Shown here one piece after another: positions 50,341 through 58,361 of a stretch of 64,000 nt of DNA (its first letter is position 1; each line of letters starts with the position of its first letter). The position numbers were made by a program, and so were the translations under genes. Under the pieces are notes generated by a model. That model did not search any database, was not told the origin of the DNA, and saw nothing but the letters and a program-made list of their open reading frames with translations. The stretch lies in assembly GCF_011065895.1 (NCBI RefSeq), contig NZ_JAALCR010000007.1, positions 62,001 through 126,000 on the forward strand, given 5' to 3'. The stretch is from Paludisphaera rhizosphaerae. Lineage in GTDB: Bacteria; Planctomycetota; Planctomycetia; Isosphaerales; Isosphaeraceae.

Positions 50341-52197
50341 ATGTCCGCGTCCGCCAGCCGGGATCCGTATCAGTTCGACGTCGTGGTGGTGGGCGCCGGG
50401 CACGCCGGGGTCGAAGCGGCGCTGGCCGCCGCGCGGCTGGGACGGCGCACGGCCCTCTTGACCATGAACGTCGACGCCGTTGGGCAGATGAGCTGCAACC
50501 CGGCCATCGGCGGCGTCGCCAAGGGGCAGATCGTCCGCGAGGTCGACGCCCTCGGCGGCGCGATGGGGGTTCTCACCGACGCCTCGGCCATCCAGTTCCG
50601 GCTCCTCAACCGCGGCAAGGGGCCGGCCATGCACAGCCCCCGCGCCCAGTGCGACAAGAAGGCCTATCAGGCTCTCGCCAAACTGACCGTCGAGAACCAG
50701 CCCAACCTCACGCTCCGCCAGGAGATGATCGAGGCCGTCGAGGTCGAAGGGGGCCGCGTCGCCGGCGTCCGCTGCCGAGGGGACGTCCTCTATAAGGCGC
50801 GTTCGGTCGTTCTGACCACCGGCACCTTCCTTCAGGCCCTGATGCACACCGGCGAGGTTCGCACTCCGGGAGGTCGCGGCGGCGACGCCTCGGCCGAGGG
50901 GCTATCCGGCAGTCTCCGCGGCCTCGGCTTCGAGCTGCGCCGGTTCAAGACGGGGACGCCGCCGCGGCTCAACGGTCGGACGATCGACTTCGACCGCCTG
51001 GACCCGCAACCGGGCGACGCCGAACCCGTCGCCTTCTCGTTCCTCACCGACCGGATCGAACAGGTCCAGGTCCCCTGCCACATCACGGCCACGTCGCAGG
51101 CCGTCCACGAGATCATCCGCGCCAACCTGCACCGCGCGCCGATGTACTCGGGACGGATCCAGTCGACCGGCCCGCGATACTGCCCGTCGATCGAGGACAA
51201 GGTGGTGCGGTTCGCCGACCGCGAGTCGCACCAGATCTTCCTGGAACCCGAGGGCCGCAACACCCGCGAATACTACTGCAACGGCATCTCCACCAGCCTC
51301 CCCCGCGACGTCCAGGAGGAGATCATCCCCCTGATCCCCGGCCTGGAACACGCCGAGATCATGCGCTACGGGTACGCCGTCGAGTACGACTTCGCCCCCC
51401 CCGAACAGCTTAGCCCAACCCTGGAAACCAAGGCCGTCCCCGGCCTCTTCTTCGCCGGCCAGCTCAACGGCACGACCGGCTACGAGGAAGCCGCCGCTCA
51501 GGGACTTGTCGCCGGGGCCAACGCGGCGCTCTCGGCGGCCGACGCCGAGCCGTTCACGCTCGACCGATCGACGTCGTACATCGGCGTCCTGATCGACGAT
51601 CTGGTGACCCGCGGGGTCGATGAGCCCTACCGGATGTTCACCAGCCGCGCCGAGTATCGGCTGCTCCTCCGCCACGACAACGCCGACCTCCGCCTCACCG
51701 AGCGGGGTCGGGCCGTCGGACTGGTCGACGACGCCCGCTGGGCTCGCTTCGAAACCCGCCGCGACGCCATCGCCGGCCTCCGCGAACGGCTGACGACCAC
51801 CCGCAAGGGGGGCGTCGCCCTATTCCAGACGCTCCGCCGCCACGACACGACCTGGGCCGACCTCGCGGCCCTGGACCCGGACCTCGCCTCGGCCGGGATC
51901 CCGGCCGACGTCGTCGCCCAGGTGACCATCGAGGCGAAATACGAGGGCTACGTCGGCCGCCAGGTCGAGCAGATCGAGCGGTTCCGCCGCCTGGAAGACA
52001 AGGCGATCCCCGCCGACTTCGACTACGCCGCGATTCCCCAGCTTCGCGCCGAGGCCCGCGAAAAGCTCGCAAGGGTCCGCCCCCGCTCACTCGGCCAGGC
52101 GGGCCGAATCAGCGGGATCAGCCCGGCCGACCTCGCCACCCTGCTCGTCCATCTCCGCCGCCGCCCCGCGTCCACCGCCGACGGGTCGGCCCGCTGA
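50341..52197 (+). CDS. mnmG: tRNA uridine-5-carboxymethylaminomethyl modification enzyme MnmG
   Basis: A 618-residue FAD-dependent enzyme that, with MnmE, installs the (c)mnm5 group on wobble U34 of tRNAs. The N-terminal FAD fold reads VVVVGAGHAGVEAALAAARL; the signature SCNPAIGGVAKGQIVREVDA follows, then the conserved GRIQSTGPRYCPSIEDKV and GLFFAGQLNGTTGYEEAAAQ. Cys residues after FAD-binding are as expected. Length is normal. mnmE and rsmG are not adjacent. The ribosome site before ATG 50341 is weak. Confidence 0.97.
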   Translation: MSASASRDPYQFDVVVVGAGHAGVEAALAAARLGRRTALLTMNVDAVGQMSCNPAIGGVAKGQIVREVDALGGAMGVLTDASAIQFRLLNRGKGPAMHSPRAQCDKKAYQALAKLTVENQPNLTLRQEMIEAVEVEGGRVAGVRCRGDVLYKARSVVLTTGTFLQALMHTGEVRTPGGRGGDASAEGLSGSLRGLGFELRRFKTGTPPRLNGRTIDFDRLDPQPGDAEPVAFSFLTDRIEQVQVPCHITATSQAVHEIIRANLHRAPMYSGRIQSTGPRYCPSIEDKVVRFADRESHQIFLEPEGRNTREYYCNGISTSLPRDVQEEIIPLIPGLEHAEIMRYGYAVEYDFAPPEQLSPTLETKAVPGLFFAGQLNGTTGYEEAAAQGLVAGANAALSAADAEPFTLDRSTSYIGVLIDDLVTRGVDEPYRMFTSRAEYRLLLRHDNADLRLTERGRAVGLVDDARWARFETRRDAIAGLRERLTTTRKGGVALFQTLRRHDTTWADLAALDPDLASAGIPADVVAQVTIEAKYEGYVGRQVEQIERFRRLEDKAIPADFDYAAIPQLRAEAREKLARVRPRSLGQAGRISGISPADLATLLVHLRRRPASTADGSAR

Positions 52198-52803
52198 AAT
52201 TGCCCCGAGCCCGGAAACTCCTCTCCCCCGTCTATCGCCGTAAATCATCGCCGTAGCCTCCCATCCCCCGCCGCGTCCGACAACCGAGATTGACAGAATC
52301 GCGCATTCGGTATTTGCTGTGCAGGACGTCTCCCCTTACCAGTCCTTCCAGAACGAAGTCCTGGAAAGCTGGGGAGATGGTTCCTTGCAGTCTTCAGGAA
52401 GAGGCTGACGCCGATGGCGAGACCGCACCAATGTGGTCATCCGATCAGCGACAGTCCGTGCCGTCGGCCTTCGCGGGTCCACGGCGCGTCGTCCAGGTTG
52501 GCTCTCGTCAACACGAGCCCTCTCCTCAGCCTCCCCTGATTGACAAAGACTCACGACTTTTTACAATTGGTCGAATTGGCAATTTCGGTAATTTTTATAG
52601 TCTTCGCAGGTTTTAACGCTTAGGCTTTTCACGGAGGTCAAAAGCCTCGGCGTGGGAGTCGGCAGGATCGCGATCGAGATCGTGACAGGGACGTGTCGCA
52701 GGGAGGCCGAACGGGGCGGTATCGGGTTCGCAGGAAGGTCGCCGGAGGGGCGGCAGTGCGAGCTTGAAAACGACCCCGAGGGATCATCGGGACTCAACCA
52801 ACC
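52198..52803. other. 606-bp leader/intergenic region before the HTH-receiver gene
   Basis: No gene is convincing here. It contains a hairpin-like stretch near 52337-52370 (CCAG...TCCTTCCAG against CTGGA...GCTGG), the promoter at 52540-52567, and AT-rich sequence with a 9-nt rhythm (52566-52600). The promoter would give a 5' leader of roughly 230 nt before the response-regulator gene. Confidence 0.6.
52540..52567 (+). promoter_or_regulatory. Near-consensus sigma-70 type promoter
   Basis: TTGACA (52540-52545), 16 bp, then TACAAT (52562-52567). In a genome this GC-rich such a match is unlikely by chance. It points at the HTH-receiver gene starting at 52804, giving a leader of roughly 230 nt. 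Confidence 0.6.
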
Positions 52804-53385
52804 ATGAAGACCGTTTACACGACGGGCGAGGCTGCGAAGATCTGCAAGGTCAGTCAGCAGACCATCATCCGCTGTTTCGACTCGGGCCAATTGAAGGGGT
52901 TCCGGGTACCCGGCTCGCGATTCCGGCGGATTCCGCGGGAGGCGCTGTACCGGTTTATGAAGGACAACGGGATCCCCACCGACGCTCTGGAGAGCGGGCG
53001 GCGGCGGATCCTGATCGTCGACGACGATCAGGCGGTGGTGGACCTGATCGCCGAAGTGCTGACGGCCGACGGCCGGTTCGAGCACAAGGCGGTGAACAAC
53101 GGGTTCGGGGCGGGGATGCTCGCCAAGGAATACCACCCGGACCTCATCATCCTCGACGTCATGTTGCCGGACATCAACGGCCAGGCCGTCTGCGAGCTGA
53201 TCCGCCGGGATCCCAGCATCTCGGACATCAAGATCATCTGCATCTCGGGCATGGTTGAGGAAGACAAGATCGCCGAGCTGAAGACCTCCGGCGCGGACGA
53301 TTTCCTCCACAAGCCGCTCGATATCGATGAACTGATCGCCAAGATCTGCCGACTGTTAGATATGGAGACCAGCCCTAACGCCTGA
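52804..53385 (+). CDS. Response regulator with N-terminal excisionase-like HTH
   Basis: A 193-residue regulator with reversed order. Residues 1-60 form an excisionase/MerR-like winged helix (YTTGEAAKICKVSQQTIIRC, FRRIPREALYRFM); residues 68-190 are a receiver: RRILIVDDDQAV, phosphoacceptor Asp118 in LIILDVMLPD, Ser/Lys switch residues (CISGM, HKPLD). DNA-binding plus receiver in this order is a planctomycete-type arrangement. The histidine kinase follows, its GTG only 75 bp after the stop. Start ATG 52804, supported by the upstream AT-rich promoter region. Confidence 0.92.
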   Translation: MKTVYTTGEAAKICKVSQQTIIRCFDSGQLKGFRVPGSRFRRIPREALYRFMKDNGIPTDALESGRRRILIVDDDQAVVDLIAEVLTADGRFEHKAVNNGFGAGMLAKEYHPDLIILDVMLPDINGQAVCELIRRDPSISDIKIICISGMVEEDKIAELKTSGADDFLHKPLDIDELIAKICRLLDMETSPNA

Positions 53386-53460
53386 GTGCGAAGCGCCCGA
53401 CGCGCCGCCCGATCCGGGGGGCCGACGGGCGGAAGGGGGTCGGGAAGGAGCCCGATCGTC

Positions 53461-55476
53461 GTGCGGTTCCAGTCGGGACGAACAACACCGGGAGAGCCGC
53501 TGCTCGGCCGCCTGTACGGGCTGGCGCGGCTGCCGGTCCGTCCTCATTCCGCGCGCGTCGTCGCCGCGGTCTTCGCCGACGCGGTCGAAGCCGAGGACGA
53601 CGAGTCGGGCCCGGTCGTCCCCCGGACGCTCCCCGACCTCGACCCGGGCTGGCTCGCCGCCGAGGCGACGCCCGGTTCCCCAGGCGCGCTCCAGGTTCTG
53701 GCGAACGCCCCCTGGTGGCCTTCAGCGACAGCCTCGGGCCCCGCGGCCGAGGCGATCCAGAAGCTCTGGCGTCACGCCGTCGCGACGGCCTCGGCGTGTC
53801 GGTCGCTAGCGAAAGAACACGACGACCGCGATCCCGACGGTCTGATCCGCGCGGGGATGCTGCACGGCCTGGGTCGCTGGGCCCTGGCGGCCGTCGATCC
53901 TGAACGCCTGGCCCTCTGGCTGGCCGAACCCGATCGCGAAGCCCGCCGCCGCCGCGAGATCGCCGAGTTGGGCCTCGACCTCCGCGAAGTCGGCCGATGC
54001 CTGGCGGAGCGCTGGGGCTGCGACCCCTTGATCGTCGACGCCGCATGGCTTTACGGCGAGGACGACGCCGACCTGCTGGCCGCTGCCCGCGAGCCAGCCC
54101 GGTTAGCCCTCGTCCGCGAGGCCATCCGCCGCGCCGAGGCCACCCCCTGGGCGCTGGACCCGCCCGACGGCCGCACGCCGGCCATGCCGGCCGACCCCCG
54201 CCTGAGGATCCTCGTGGCCGAAGTCCAGGCTCGCACCGGGGCTCCGTTTACGGCCGCCGACGCCTCTCCCTTCGAGGAGCGGGCCGTCCGCGACGCCGCC
54301 CGGCTCCGAATCCGGCTCGCCGAGATGACGCGCACCGCCGCCAGCCGGCAGCGGCTCATCGACGCTGTCGCCGACTCCGTCCCCGACGAAACCCCGGAGA
54401 ACTGGGCCGTCCGCGCCGGCCGAGCCTGGTGCGGCGAACCCGAGGTCAACGCCGCCCGCGTCGTTTGGCGCGAGCCCCGCATGGGCGCGGCGGCTCCAGG
54501 TCTCGACGACGAGCCCGAGTCCGAGAACCCGTCGCGCCGGGGTGCCTCCTGGACGATCCCCCTGGAATCGGCGGGCGAATCCATCGGCGAAATCCAGCTC
54601 TGGCTCGACGCCGACGTGCAGGCTCTCCACGACCGACTTGGCCCCACGCGAGTGATCGAAGCCTGGAAGTCGTGGTCGGCCCATGTCGCCGGCCGGGCCT
54701 TGCAAGATCGTCGCCTGCGCGCCGCGGTGGAGGGCTCTCGCGAGGCTTCGCGATCGGCCCGGGCTCGGCTTCAGACCGCCAAGCTTGACGCCCTCGCCGA
54801 ATTCGCCGCCGGCGCGGGACATGAGTTGAACAACCCGCTGGCCGTCATCGTCGGCCGGGCCCAACTCCTTCAGGCCAAGGCCGAGGACCCGGAGACGAAG
54901 CGGTCGCTGGGAATCATCCTCAGCCAGGCGCAGCGGACGCACCGGATCCTCCGCGACCTCATGTTCATCGCCCGTCCTGGCACCTCCCGCCCCCGGCTCT
55001 GTCGACCGGCCGACGTCCTGCGCGCCTGCCTGGCCGACTTCCAGGCCGAGTGCGAATCCCGCGGCCTCCGTCTGGTCGGCGAATTCGACGAGCCCGAGCA
55101 ACAGGCGTGGACCGACCCTGACGGCCTGCGACACGTCGCCGACGTCCTGATCCGCAACGCACTCCAGGCCTCCTCCGGCAACGGCGGCGGGACGATCCGC
55201 CTCCGCGCGGGGCGGCAGGGCCGCGAGCTTCGCATCCAGGTGGCCGACACCGGCAAGGGGATCGCCCCGACCGAAGCCCCCCACCTCTTCGACCCCTTCT
55301 TCTGCGGTCGGCAGGCCGGCCGCGGGCTGGGCCTGGGCCTCGCCCGGGCCGCCCGGATCGTCGAGCGCGCCGGCGGCTCTCTGACATGGGACCCCGCCCC
55401 CGGCCAGGGCTCGATCTTCCACGTCCGCATCCCCTGGGAACGCCCCCCCGAAGAGCCCGCCGCACGCGGAGCTTGA
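53461..55476 (+). CDS. HDOD-like/histidine kinase, partner of HTH-receiver protein
   Basis: A 671-residue cytoplasmic sensor kinase without an obvious membrane helix. Residues about 95-215 resemble an HDOD/HD fold, with LWRHAVATA and HGLGRW where an active enzyme would have H-D. Then a region of unknown type with a GAF-like stretch, and the kinase core: AAGAGHELNNPLAVIVGRAQ (His454), ADVLIRNALQAS (N box), VADTGKGIAP (G1), GRGLGLGLARAARIVE (G2). The preceding response-regulator gene is the probable target. GTG 53461 lies after GGAAGGAG. Earlier GTG 53386 is also open. Confidence 0.85.
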   Translation: MRFQSGRTTPGEPLLGRLYGLARLPVRPHSARVVAAVFADAVEAEDDESGPVVPRTLPDLDPGWLAAEATPGSPGALQVLANAPWWPSATASGPAAEAIQKLWRHAVATASACRSLAKEHDDRDPDGLIRAGMLHGLGRWALAAVDPERLALWLAEPDREARRRREIAELGLDLREVGRCLAERWGCDPLIVDAAWLYGEDDADLLAAAREPARLALVREAIRRAEATPWALDPPDGRTPAMPADPRLRILVAEVQARTGAPFTAADASPFEERAVRDAARLRIRLAEMTRTAASRQRLIDAVADSVPDETPENWAVRAGRAWCGEPEVNAARVVWREPRMGAAAPGLDDEPESENPSRRGASWTIPLESAGESIGEIQLWLDADVQALHDRLGPTRVIEAWKSWSAHVAGRALQDRRLRAAVEGSREASRSARARLQTAKLDALAEFAAGAGHELNNPLAVIVGRAQLLQAKAEDPETKRSLGIILSQAQRTHRILRDLMFIARPGTSRPRLCRPADVLRACLADFQAECESRGLRLVGEFDEPEQQAWTDPDGLRHVADVLIRNALQASSGNGGGTIRLRAGRQGRELRIQVADTGKGIAPTEAPHLFDPFFCGRQAGRGLGLGLARAARIVERAGGSLTWDPAPGQGSIFHVRIPWERPPEEPAARGA

Positions 55477-55952
55477 TCGACCGCCCGAGATCGTCAAAAC
55501 AGACGACTCGCGACCTGCGGAGGTCGTAATCGCTCAGGGGACCTGGATGGAGGCTCCCGCCTCCGAATCCAGCGCGCCGTCAACTCCACGACGGCGCCGT
55601 CGGCCCCCCGCCAGTCGCTCGATTTCAAACGCCGGTGCCAGGTCGTCGCCTGGTCTTGACACGCGCCGACGAGCCGGCGGATCGACCGGCGAACACTCAT
55701 ATGCATGCGCGATGGTCGAGAACCGCGTCGTAGACTCCCTCGTTTTAGGGATATCGCCAAGACCGACCTCTTCCCCACACTTTACAATCAAATTTGTGTC
55801 ACTTTCGAACTTTTTTCCAGTTTACTGGGCTAACTCGTCTCCTTTCTCGCATTGTCTTGCGAACGATGAATTCGCCGACGAGTTCCCCCCTCGATCGACG
55901 TCGAGGGAGTCGCGCTCACGTGATGGGGCTGAAACGTCAGGAGGCCCGATCG
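55477..55952. other. 476-bp gap
   Basis: No gene convincing. An AT-rich stretch (about 55775-55830) may carry the promoter of the TPR gene. A minus-strand frame at 55494-55778 reads like low-quality protein and lacks a ribosome site. Confidence 0.5.
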
Positions 55953-58361
55953 ATGAACGTGGAACACGACCAACCGACCCTTTTCCACCGAGTCCACGCC
56001 CGCCACGGTTCCATCCTGCTCGTCGCGCTCGCTCTGGCCGGGACCGCCTCGGCGGGCCTCGCACTGACCTGGCGGGCCGCAAAGGCAGAGCGACGAGCCC
56101 TCGACGCGCTTGAGAGCGAAGTCGCCCAGCGCCGGTTCGCCCAGGAGCAACTGGCCGTCGCCCTTGAGGAACTCGACGAACTGTACGCCGACCTGGGAGA
56201 ATGGTGGTTGGCGAACGCCGACGGGTTGACCAGTCTTCAGCGTCAATGCCTGACAAAAGCCCTGCCTCGCTACGAACGGTTCGCGGAGGCTCAGGGCGAC
56301 GCCCCCGACGTCCGCCGCGCCACGGCGACGGCCATTCACCGGGTCGGCCAGATCCGCATGGCGCTCGGCCGCCCCGGCGACGCCGAAGGACCCTTCGAGC
56401 AGGCCGTGGCGATTCGACGACAGCTTGCCGACTTTCCCCCCCACCACCCCGCCGACCGCCTCGCCCTGGCTGAAAGCCTTCGGGCGCGCGGAGCCGTTCT
56501 GAGCACCCTGCGGCTCAAAACCGCGGCGGAACAGCTCGATCGCGAGGCCGCCGATCTGGCCGACTCCCTCGTCGCAGAAAATCCCGGCGAGCCGCTCTAC
56601 CTCGGCGTGCTGATCGAATGCCTGAACGATCTGAGCCAGCGGCAGGAAGACCTGGCGCGAAACGATGAGGCCGAAACGACCCACCAGCGAGCGCTCAGCC
56701 TCGCAAGATCCCTCGCGGCCTCGAATCCGACCGCCCCCAGACATCGAGAGCTGCTGGCCCGGCTTCTCAGCCGCGAGGGAGCCCGCGCCGGTGTGCGGGG
56801 CGAGTGTGACGACGCGGAAGCCGCTCTGCGTCAGACGATAGGCATCCTGAAGGATCTTCAGATCGACGCCCCGAGCCGCATCGACTACCGCGCCAGGCAC
56901 GCGGCGGCTCTGGGCGACCTCGCCGTCGCCCTGAGCAAGGCAAAGCGGCCTCGCGACGCCGACCCCGTGTTGCGCCGATCGGTCGCGATGCACGACGAAC
57001 TGGCCGAGGAGCATCCCGACGTCCTTCTCTACCGCCGACGTTCCGCCGCAGCCTGGCACAACCTGGGCGTGCTGCATGACCGACTCGGCCGGGCAGCCGA
57101 CGCGGAAGCGGCCTGGCGCCATTCCATCAAGCTGTACGAGGACTTGCTTCGCGATTTTCCTGACGATCAAGAATCTCGCGCCGACCTCGCCGCCACCGCC
57201 GCCCTGCTGGCCTCGAAGCTCGATAGCGTCGATCAATCCGCGAAAGCCCTGGAATACCGTGTGATGCAGGCGGACGCGGCTCGATCGCTCGTCGACCTGG
57301 CTCCTGAGAACGTCAACCGTCGCCTGGCGCTGGCGAACGCCTGGATCGACATCGGGGGGAGCTTGATGGGCGTCGGCCGCACAGACGAGGCTCTGGGCTA
57401 CCTCCGGAATGGCCTGGCGGCCTATGAACCTGTGAGCGGCCAGCGCTCGCTGAACATGCAGGGCCTTTCGTATCTGGCCTGCGGGCTAACCAACCTGTCT
57501 CAATGCCTCAAGCTCCACCGCGACGGGCTTGAGGAAGCTGAGTCCGCACTACGGCGTGCGGCCGACTTCCACAGACGCCTGGCGAACCAGCGTCCCGACG
57601 ACCTCGACTTCCAGCGGGCCCTCGGCGAGGATCTGGTCCGCCTCGGAGAGCTGCGAAGACTCCAAGGGAAGTCCGCGGAGGCCGTCGATTTGTGCGAGCG
57701 GGCCCTGGCCTTTCAGCGATCCAACCTTGCCGACAACCCGTCCGACCTGGCCGTGCGCCAGGCCTTTCGGGAAGCGCACTACGAGCTGGCCAAGGCCAAG
57801 CGGGCTCTTGGCGACCGGGCGGGAGCCTCGGAAACCGCTGAGTCGCTCATTCGCGACATGCCCGACGACCCCCAGGCCCTGGCGATGGCCGTCGGGTTCC
57901 TCGAAAATCGAGCCGTCGCCAAGGCCGCCGTCGACAAGGCGGCGGATCTCGGAGCCCGCAATGCGAGTATCCAGAACTTGCTGGCGTACGTCCTGGCCAC
58001 GACGTCCCATCCGGGCCTCCGGGATCCGTCTCGGGCCGTGGAACTGGCTCGTAGGGCGACGGGATTCTCGCCTCTGAACGGCGCGTACGAGTCGACACTC
58101 GGTCTGGCCCTGTTCCGCTCCGGTCAGTACGACGAGGCTGTCGTCAGGCTCGAACGTGCAGAATGTCTTCCCGGCCGTCTGGAAGGCCTCGACGCCCTGG
58201 CCCTTACTCTGGCACACACACAGAAAGGCGACCTGTCGACCGCCCGCAGGCACTACGAGCACGCCATGAAATGGGCCGAAATCCACTCGCTCATCGATCA
58301 GGAAGTCTTCGAAGACCTCCGCGCGGAGGCTGAGGCGGCTCTCAACGACGAGACGTCGTAG
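55953..58361 (+). CDS. Membrane TPR protein (kinase-less relative)
   Basis: An 802-residue protein with an N-terminal cytoplasmic stub, a transmembrane helix at about 19-38 (GSILLVALALAGTASAGLAL), a coiled coil (ALDALESEVAQRRFAQEQLA), then about 700 residues of TPR-like helices (RVGQIRMALGRPGDAEGPFE, and AWHNLGVLHDRLGRAADAEAAW). Such tails are usually fused to planctomycete Ser/Thr kinases; here the kinase part is missing. Repeats resemble those of the kinase at 4797-8039. AGGAGG lies 9 nt before ATG 55953; ATG 55923 is an alternative. Confidence 0.82.
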   Translation: MNVEHDQPTLFHRVHARHGSILLVALALAGTASAGLALTWRAAKAERRALDALESEVAQRRFAQEQLAVALEELDELYADLGEWWLANADGLTSLQRQCLTKALPRYERFAEAQGDAPDVRRATATAIHRVGQIRMALGRPGDAEGPFEQAVAIRRQLADFPPHHPADRLALAESLRARGAVLSTLRLKTAAEQLDREAADLADSLVAENPGEPLYLGVLIECLNDLSQRQEDLARNDEAETTHQRALSLARSLAASNPTAPRHRELLARLLSREGARAGVRGECDDAEAALRQTIGILKDLQIDAPSRIDYRARHAAALGDLAVALSKAKRPRDADPVLRRSVAMHDELAEEHPDVLLYRRRSAAAWHNLGVLHDRLGRAADAEAAWRHSIKLYEDLLRDFPDDQESRADLAATAALLASKLDSVDQSAKALEYRVMQADAARSLVDLAPENVNRRLALANAWIDIGGSLMGVGRTDEALGYLRNGLAAYEPVSGQRSLNMQGLSYLACGLTNLSQCLKLHRDGLEEAESALRRAADFHRRLANQRPDDLDFQRALGEDLVRLGELRRLQGKSAEAVDLCERALAFQRSNLADNPSDLAVRQAFREAHYELAKAKRALGDRAGASETAESLIRDMPDDPQALAMAVGFLENRAVAKAAVDKAADLGARNASIQNLLAYVLATTSHPGLRDPSRAVELARRATGFSPLNGAYESTLGLALFRSGQYDEAVVRLERAECLPGRLEGLDALALTLAHTQKGDLSTARRHYEHAMKWAEIHSLIDQEVFEDLRAEAEAALNDETS

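Follow-up and report, generated by a model that had tools for sequence, protein, structure and literature searches.

BldC of Streptomyces assembles on DNA as head-to-tail multimers, each protomer covering a 9-bp direct repeat, AATTXXXX(C); Arg30 reads the C–G pair of the repeat, His46 is needed for binding and Phe21, Val23, Trp31, Ile40, Leu43 and Gly44 form the hydrophobic multimer core (PMC5859096). BldC has 68 residues, many target genes and no receiver domain (PMC5859096). The RdfS/Xis-type winged helix–turn–helix (HTH) proteins, which belong to HTH group 17, likewise form head-to-tail oligomers on DNA; they are recombination directionality factors of mobile elements, described without mention of a receiver or kinase (PMC11963761). 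Here we describe a two-component pair in a 64,000-nucleotide stretch of Paludisphaera rhizosphaerae, of the planctomycete family Isosphaeraceae (contig NZ_JAALCR010000007.1, positions 62,001 to 126,000; hereafter the window)—a response regulator with an HTH_17 domain in front of its receiver, and a downstream histidine kinase with an HDOD domain. An array of 9-bp direct repeats starts at the −10 box of their promoter. We give odds of about two in three to the system being autoregulated and driven by an internal signal, with a regulator that would bind DNA like BldC under receiver control.

Two further groups bear comparison. PhoB/OmpR-type response regulators share the receiver active-site residues, the direct-repeat operators and the kinase next door; they match our regulator over the receiver only, and the output domain here is an HTH_17 placed before the receiver. 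On the kinase side, the HDOD proteins 3m1t, 3ljx and 3p3q (275–288 residues, named phosphohydrolase or MmoQ) share the HDOD domain, for which the window kinase passes the Pfam cut-off, and match it over the HDOD part only. An earlier appraisal made from the letters alone (the sequence-only reading) had thought the combination undescribed. The openly licensed literature agrees, insofar as the titles and abstract openings of the best matches contain no HTH_17–receiver regulator with an HDOD kinase, which is not proof of absence from print.

The regulator is differentiated into HTH_17 (residues 4–55, Pfam E 1e-9, 38.9 bits against a cut-off of 27) and Response_reg (residues 69–181, E 7e-24). The receiver is complete, with an acidic pair (D73 and D74), a phospho-acceptor aspartate (D118), a Ser/Thr position (S148) and a lysine (K170), all unchanged throughout 28 aligned sequences. 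The HTH region, TTGEAAKICKVSQQTIIRCFDSGQLKGFRVPGSRFRRIPR in the window, hardly varies among relatives; 30 aligned sequences agree completely in 44 of the first 60 columns (43 of them informative, residue 1 having been set to M in all 30 rows). A weak alignment to BldC (E 0.86) places Arg30, Val23 and Gly44 on the invariant R23, V16 and G37 (R23 is invariant in 28 sequences), and F33 and P36 are also compatible with the BldC multimer core. Both proteins are MerR-like/HTH_17 winged helices associated with repeat arrays of varying length, and the repeat here, written in the same frame as AANNTYGGY, has an AT-rich half and a Y where the BldC repeat has its C (PMC5859096). Unlike BldC, the regulator has its HTH fused to a receiver with an intact active site and carries other residues opposite Phe21, Trp31 and His46, and only one strong array was found. 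Because BldC is small and lacks a receiver, we do not class the regulator as a member of the BldC family; we favour the view that it would work like BldC.

We compared the locus across two samples. The first comprises 40 genomes, the window's own included (25 family loci and 15 non-family class loci, with six genomes from one genus). The second is a named collection in which at least 562 places encode relatives of the regulator; the 80 closest were kept, so that the set leans to close relatives. In the window, TTGACA-16-TACAAT (52540–52567) agrees with the −35 and −10 consensus at 11 of 12 positions, occurs once in the region against a shuffle mean of 0.2 and ends 236 nt upstream of the regulator start. 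The promoter is found in 36 of the 40 loci, with a spacer of 16 in 35 of these; among 78 named loci, a slightly different scan found it in 74, of which 73 keep the spacer at exactly 16 (shuffles: mean 0.85, maximum 3).

The repeats stand in register with the −10 box and run, in order, TTTACAATT GGTCGAATT GGCAATTTC GGTAATTTT TATAGTCTT CGCAGGTTT TAACG. Starting 2 bases before −10 and read in the same 9-base register, the family consensus is roughly NNTAYAATT GGNNNNNTY GGYAANNTY GGYAANNTY NNTAGNNTY CGYARRNTT TRMCG. For the window alone, the period-9 self-similarity of the 50 nt behind −10 was reached by a fraction of 0.0004 of 5,000 shuffles, in a test that examined 16 periods. Across the family, period-9 self-identity over the 50 bases behind −10 is 0.475 against 0.248 shuffled (z score 17.1, n = 23; of the 25 family loci, L101 was moved to the other loci and L115, with no promoter by the scan, was dropped), and it is 0.469 when one genome per genus is kept (n = 18). 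The other promoter-bearing loci give 0.375 (z 5.9, n = 13), and named loci outside the Isosphaera-like set 0.404 over 45 bases (z 15.5, n = 57). Of the 74 named promoters, 43 contain a strict pair of repeats, GGYAR-N4-GGYAR, compared with 0.09 in shuffles; seven other spacings gave 0 to 4. The pair persists in 33 of 62 once duplicates are removed, and in 24 of 36 loci of the 40-genome set. Because the period stays at 9 while the leaders otherwise differ between families, the array appears to be under selection.

Three claims of the sequence-only reading concern this region. Its TTGACA-16-TACAAT promoter and phased repeats both hold up, and its long AT-rich leader is right in length (about 230 nt) and wrong in composition beyond the first 50 nt, with a GC content of 0.36 at 52568–52617 against 0.64 at 52618–52803. 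What it overlooked is that the phased repeats would constitute an operator-like array of 9-bp units linked to the promoter.

Taken together, these features suggest the following mechanism. Inside the cell, the kinase would sense an internal cue with its HDOD-type N-terminal part and phosphorylate the receiver at D118. The N-terminal winged helix would bind DNA in the manner of BldC, with several copies lined up head-to-tail on direct repeats at 9-bp spacing; the presumed occupant of the array is the regulator itself. Left alone, so near-consensus a promoter would be active; the array spans −10 and some 50 bases past it, across the inferred start site, where a regulator filament would block RNA polymerase. 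Because the only strong array found begins at the regulator's own −10 and crosses the start site, autorepression of its own operon, tuned by the neighbouring kinase, is the most likely result; phosphorylation might either strengthen or release the filament. The array might instead be an activator site, at which the regulator aids RNA polymerase at its own promoter in positive feedback. MerR relatives are able to act as activators, and two-component systems commonly regulate themselves positively. We nonetheless consider activation unlikely, given repeats that sit on and downstream of −10, over the inferred start site, boxes already so close to consensus, and a 16-bp spacer unlike the long 19–20 bp spacer of MerR-activated promoters.

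A composite of the promoter and two repeats (up to 3 mismatches) was searched for in 45 family genomes. It is present in 38, once each and never twice; a reversed control pattern gave 0. All 30 loci examined among the 38 matches have the regulator directly downstream. Of the remaining eight, five (G002, G005, G012, G013 and G014) agree by coordinates with a regulator match and three (G341, G342 and G345) lie outside the comparison. In G343, one of the genomes lacking the composite, a near match precedes the regulator. These counts bear on whether the array could be the operator of another regulator, with the pair as its target and not autoregulated. One candidate exists, a second HTH_17–receiver protein of about 37% identity in the same genome (G000:C45:12225-12788, L002), and 39 of the 40 genomes hold a second regulator match at E 1e-25 or better. 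Yet the composite occurs once per genome, before this regulator in every locus examined, the region upstream of the paralogue has no 9-bp array by eye, and autoregulation by the linked regulator is the simpler account; we judge ownership by another regulator improbable. No kinase of the partner type lies within the 3.5 kb surrounding the paralogue.

Searches for other targets were made with two patterns. An 18-bp pattern gave 36 matches in the window's own genome against 21 for the control, four of them mismatch-free, including the regulator's own promoter. Thirty of the 36 were examined, and each of the 29 other than the own promoter has an open frame at the locus midpoint (151–1006 codons, either strand; for L158, which is truncated, the midpoint is not the match). 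None was accepted as a site, by a criterion that is weak in GC-rich DNA. A 29-bp pattern gave 30 matches in six genus genomes; 11 overlap this promoter, among them every match with two or fewer mismatches, and no second strong array was found in these genomes. Other targets would thus have weaker sites, or the circuit would be narrow.

All 40 genomes encode the regulator (E 1e-25 or better); in each of the 39 relatives the top match is 64–97% identical. The family (f1) includes Singulisphaera sp. GP187, since L105 and L193 have their regulator DNA in common, which is in keeping with the window's place in Isosphaeraceae. A same-strand kinase follows in 39 of the 40 loci (the exception is L120), with a regulator–kinase gap of about 0.5–0.75 kb in L118 and L123. 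The named set, whose titles include Singulisphaera, Aquisphaera, Gemmata, Pirellula, Fuerstiella and Thermoguttaceae, has a kinase within 1.2 kb in 77 of 78 loci with enough room, or 64 of 65 after removal of the 13 (of 80) that duplicate loci already counted. At E 1e-30, 115 of 294 genomes in an even sample of the phylum contain regulator matches, a count that takes in paralogues. Viral contigs yielded no relative of either protein. Plasmids hold at least 5,000 regulator matches, all below 60% identity among the matches listed, and the 10 examined are 30–34% identical. One contig, titled Candidatus Kuenenia stuttgartiensis (L259), carries an Isosphaeraceae-like locus with a 76% identical regulator and an HDOD-like kinase; its title may be a mislabel.

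Might this be an ordinary two-component pair, its promoter seemingly conserved just because the comparison was among near relatives? Receivers are abundant (55 matches to the regulator in this genome alone), six of the 40 genomes share one genus and the named set consists of the 80 closest of at least 562 loci, but the pair, the fixed-spacer promoter and period 9 are all still there when regulator identity drops to 64–80%, and we think this very unlikely. Least probable of all is a role of the repeats as phased AT tracts, bending or opening the DNA with no specific protein, as the AT-richness of the segment (GC 0.36) might suggest: the period is 9, not the 10–11 bp of curved DNA, period 11 falls below its shuffles, and across genera particular bases (GG, Y, A) return in the same register.

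The kinase is modular, formed by an HDOD domain (residues 95–194, E 4e-15, 56.2 bits against a cut-off of 22.9), HisKA (445–506) and HATPase_c (551–659). H454, N566 and the G box are identical across 25 aligned sequences; the N-terminal half diverges freely among relatives, unlike the regulator HTH. The open frame begins at 53386, and the GTG at 53461, shared with near relatives, was chosen as start. As the top 19-residue hydropathy mean is only 0.96, no transmembrane helix is expected. A hydropathy of 1.6 is passed by 8 of 38 downstream open-frame sequences (L119 and L128 among the 38 are not the kinase) and by 13 of 77 kinases of the named collection, so 'soluble' can be said of the window kinase but not of all relatives. 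The structure model has a mean predicted local distance difference test (pLDDT) score of 85.3 and a predicted template modelling score of 0.57; aligned to known structures with VIA-align, most rows span residues 432–662 only, which is the kinase core, leaving the HDOD part uncovered.

The HDOD match in the window covers only profile positions 88–189 of 196 (PF08668). At E 0.01, Pfam finds HDOD in 23 of 25 family kinases and in 3 of 11 from other families of the class (drawn from the 15 non-family loci, leaving out L119, L128, L129 (short) and L120 (no kinase)). Comparing alignments of the two groups with hhalign gives a strong match over the kinase core and a weak one over the N-terminal part. 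A family-built profile detects HDOD-like regions in kinases of loci titled Gemmata or Gemmataceae, and gives no useful score in those titled Pirellula or Pirellulales. The partner kinases of L222, L223, L242 and L253 have just 231–234 residues—a bare transmitter with hardly any sensor part. Outside the class, an HDOD-like kinase follows the regulator (50–60% identity) in 12 of 13 loci. Nine of these 13 were given to Pfam; HDOD adjoins the regulator in all nine genomes and spans nearly the whole profile in seven, with the L311 kinase matching positions 1–195 at E 6e-48. Because HDOD stands next to the regulator in 9 of 9 out-of-class genomes tested, an HDOD kinase is probably the ancestral partner. 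Most of these kinases match nearly the whole profile, whereas the window HDOD matches half of it and would be a worn form of the ancestral domain. Among more distant HTH–receiver loci (L321–L327, 35–50% identity), such a kinase is found in one of seven and HDOD in none of seven.

An internal signal for the kinase is plausible. The sequence-only reading fares well over the proteins: it had the DNA-binding domain before the receiver, with correct coordinates, recognized a soluble kinase with an HDOD-like domain (above the Pfam cut-off, as a partial profile) and expected a linked pair, which the relatives in both samples preserve. The 'broken HD motif' on which it remarked is the ordinary condition of HDOD domains. 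The age of the system and its wide spread escaped it.

Several observations weigh against an autoregulated circuit with BldC-like binding. The sequence match between the regulator and BldC chain 6amk reaches only E 0.86; BldC Phe21, Trp31 and His46 face C14, C24 and R39 in the regulator, and the regulator AlphaFold model is weak over the HTH (block pLDDT 39–63). The promoter scan found nothing in 4 of the 40 loci, although in one of these (G024) the composite sits further upstream. The strict repeat pair is missing from 31 of the 74 named promoters, some Gemmata-type loci have two repeats or none by eye with an equally conserved HTH, and the composite was not found in 7 of 45 family genomes, four of which are one genus (g6). 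The shuffles of the period tests ignore the relatedness of the sequences, and there is a lesser rise at periods 8 and 10 (z 3.7–4.4 for n = 23, 5.0–5.8 for n = 57). Beyond this promoter, the 29-bp pattern has 19 matches, each with 3 mismatches, against 7 for the control, which does not establish a regulon. In none of the 13 loci outside the class do the 300 bases upstream contain the strict pair. Period 9 has a mean z of 5.9 over these 13 and reaches P < 0.05 singly in seven, several of the best windows being coding or off-site, which hints at an operator there but leaves it doubtful.

Coordinates of the regulator–kinase locus and its upstream neighbour in the window
Feature	Positions	Strand	Basis
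−35 box TTGACA	52540..52545	+	promoter scan; conserved in relatives
−10 box TACAAT, 16-bp spacer	52562..52567	+	promoter scan; spacer kept in relatives
9-bp direct repeats in register with −10, proposed regulator operator	52560..52618	+	register and period tests
5′ leader, about 230 nt from the start predicted by −10, carrying the CAGGGAGG block	52574..52803	+	alignment
Response regulator, HTH_17 then receiver, 193 aa	52804..53385	+	ATG start; Pfam and alignments
Histidine kinase without membrane-like segment, 671 aa	53461..55476	+	Pfam, alignment, hydropathy
HDOD domain of kinase, partial profile match	53743..54042	+	Pfam, relatives
HisKA domain with H454 (FAAGAGHELNNPLAVI)	54793..54978	+	Pfam; H454 invariant, 25 sequences
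HATPase_c domain with N566 and GRGLGLGL	55111..55437	+	Pfam; invariant, 25 sequences
mnmG (presumed), frequent upstream neighbour, probably outside the system	50341..52197	+	context

Within the genus, the upstream alignment consists of a conserved promoter, a conserved AT-rich block and a leader conserved in patches only. The CAGGGAGG block of the window leader, at 52699–52706, resembles CA-N-GGAGG, lies about 100 nt before the regulator start and recurs in relatives; counted by eye, 17 of 23 family leaders have GGAGG there, with no conserved start codon behind it. A leader RNA element was considered and rejected, because Rfam gave nothing up to E 1 and 23 leaders shared no consensus structure.

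The gene upstream, which we take to be mnmG from its sequence, lies on the same strand in 31 of 36 loci of the 40-genome set and in 35 of 57 further named loci (2.5 kb room). It was not seen upstream in 5 and 22 of these, respectively, so a functional link was rejected and we treat the adjacency as inherited gene order. On the other side, a second AT-rich stretch (55700–55900, GC 0.50) lies between the kinase and a long open frame (55794–58361) that is tetratricopeptide repeat (TPR)-like by eye.

To our knowledge, few planctomycete regulatory circuits have been worked out. In this one, two genes stay linked throughout a class, the DNA-binding domain hardly changes, and the family genomes with the operator-like array have a single copy of it. 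At somewhat less than even odds, we also entertain a broader view, that of a phylum-old core regulator in which receiver phosphorylation would switch a BldC-type filament on the regulator's own single-copy promoter array, while the HDOD kinase would sense metabolism or the state of the cell from within. That the system is so widespread hints at a role in some core function of the cell. If the regulator does fill the array, the system would join BldC-style cooperative assembly on direct repeats to control by a phosphorylated receiver.

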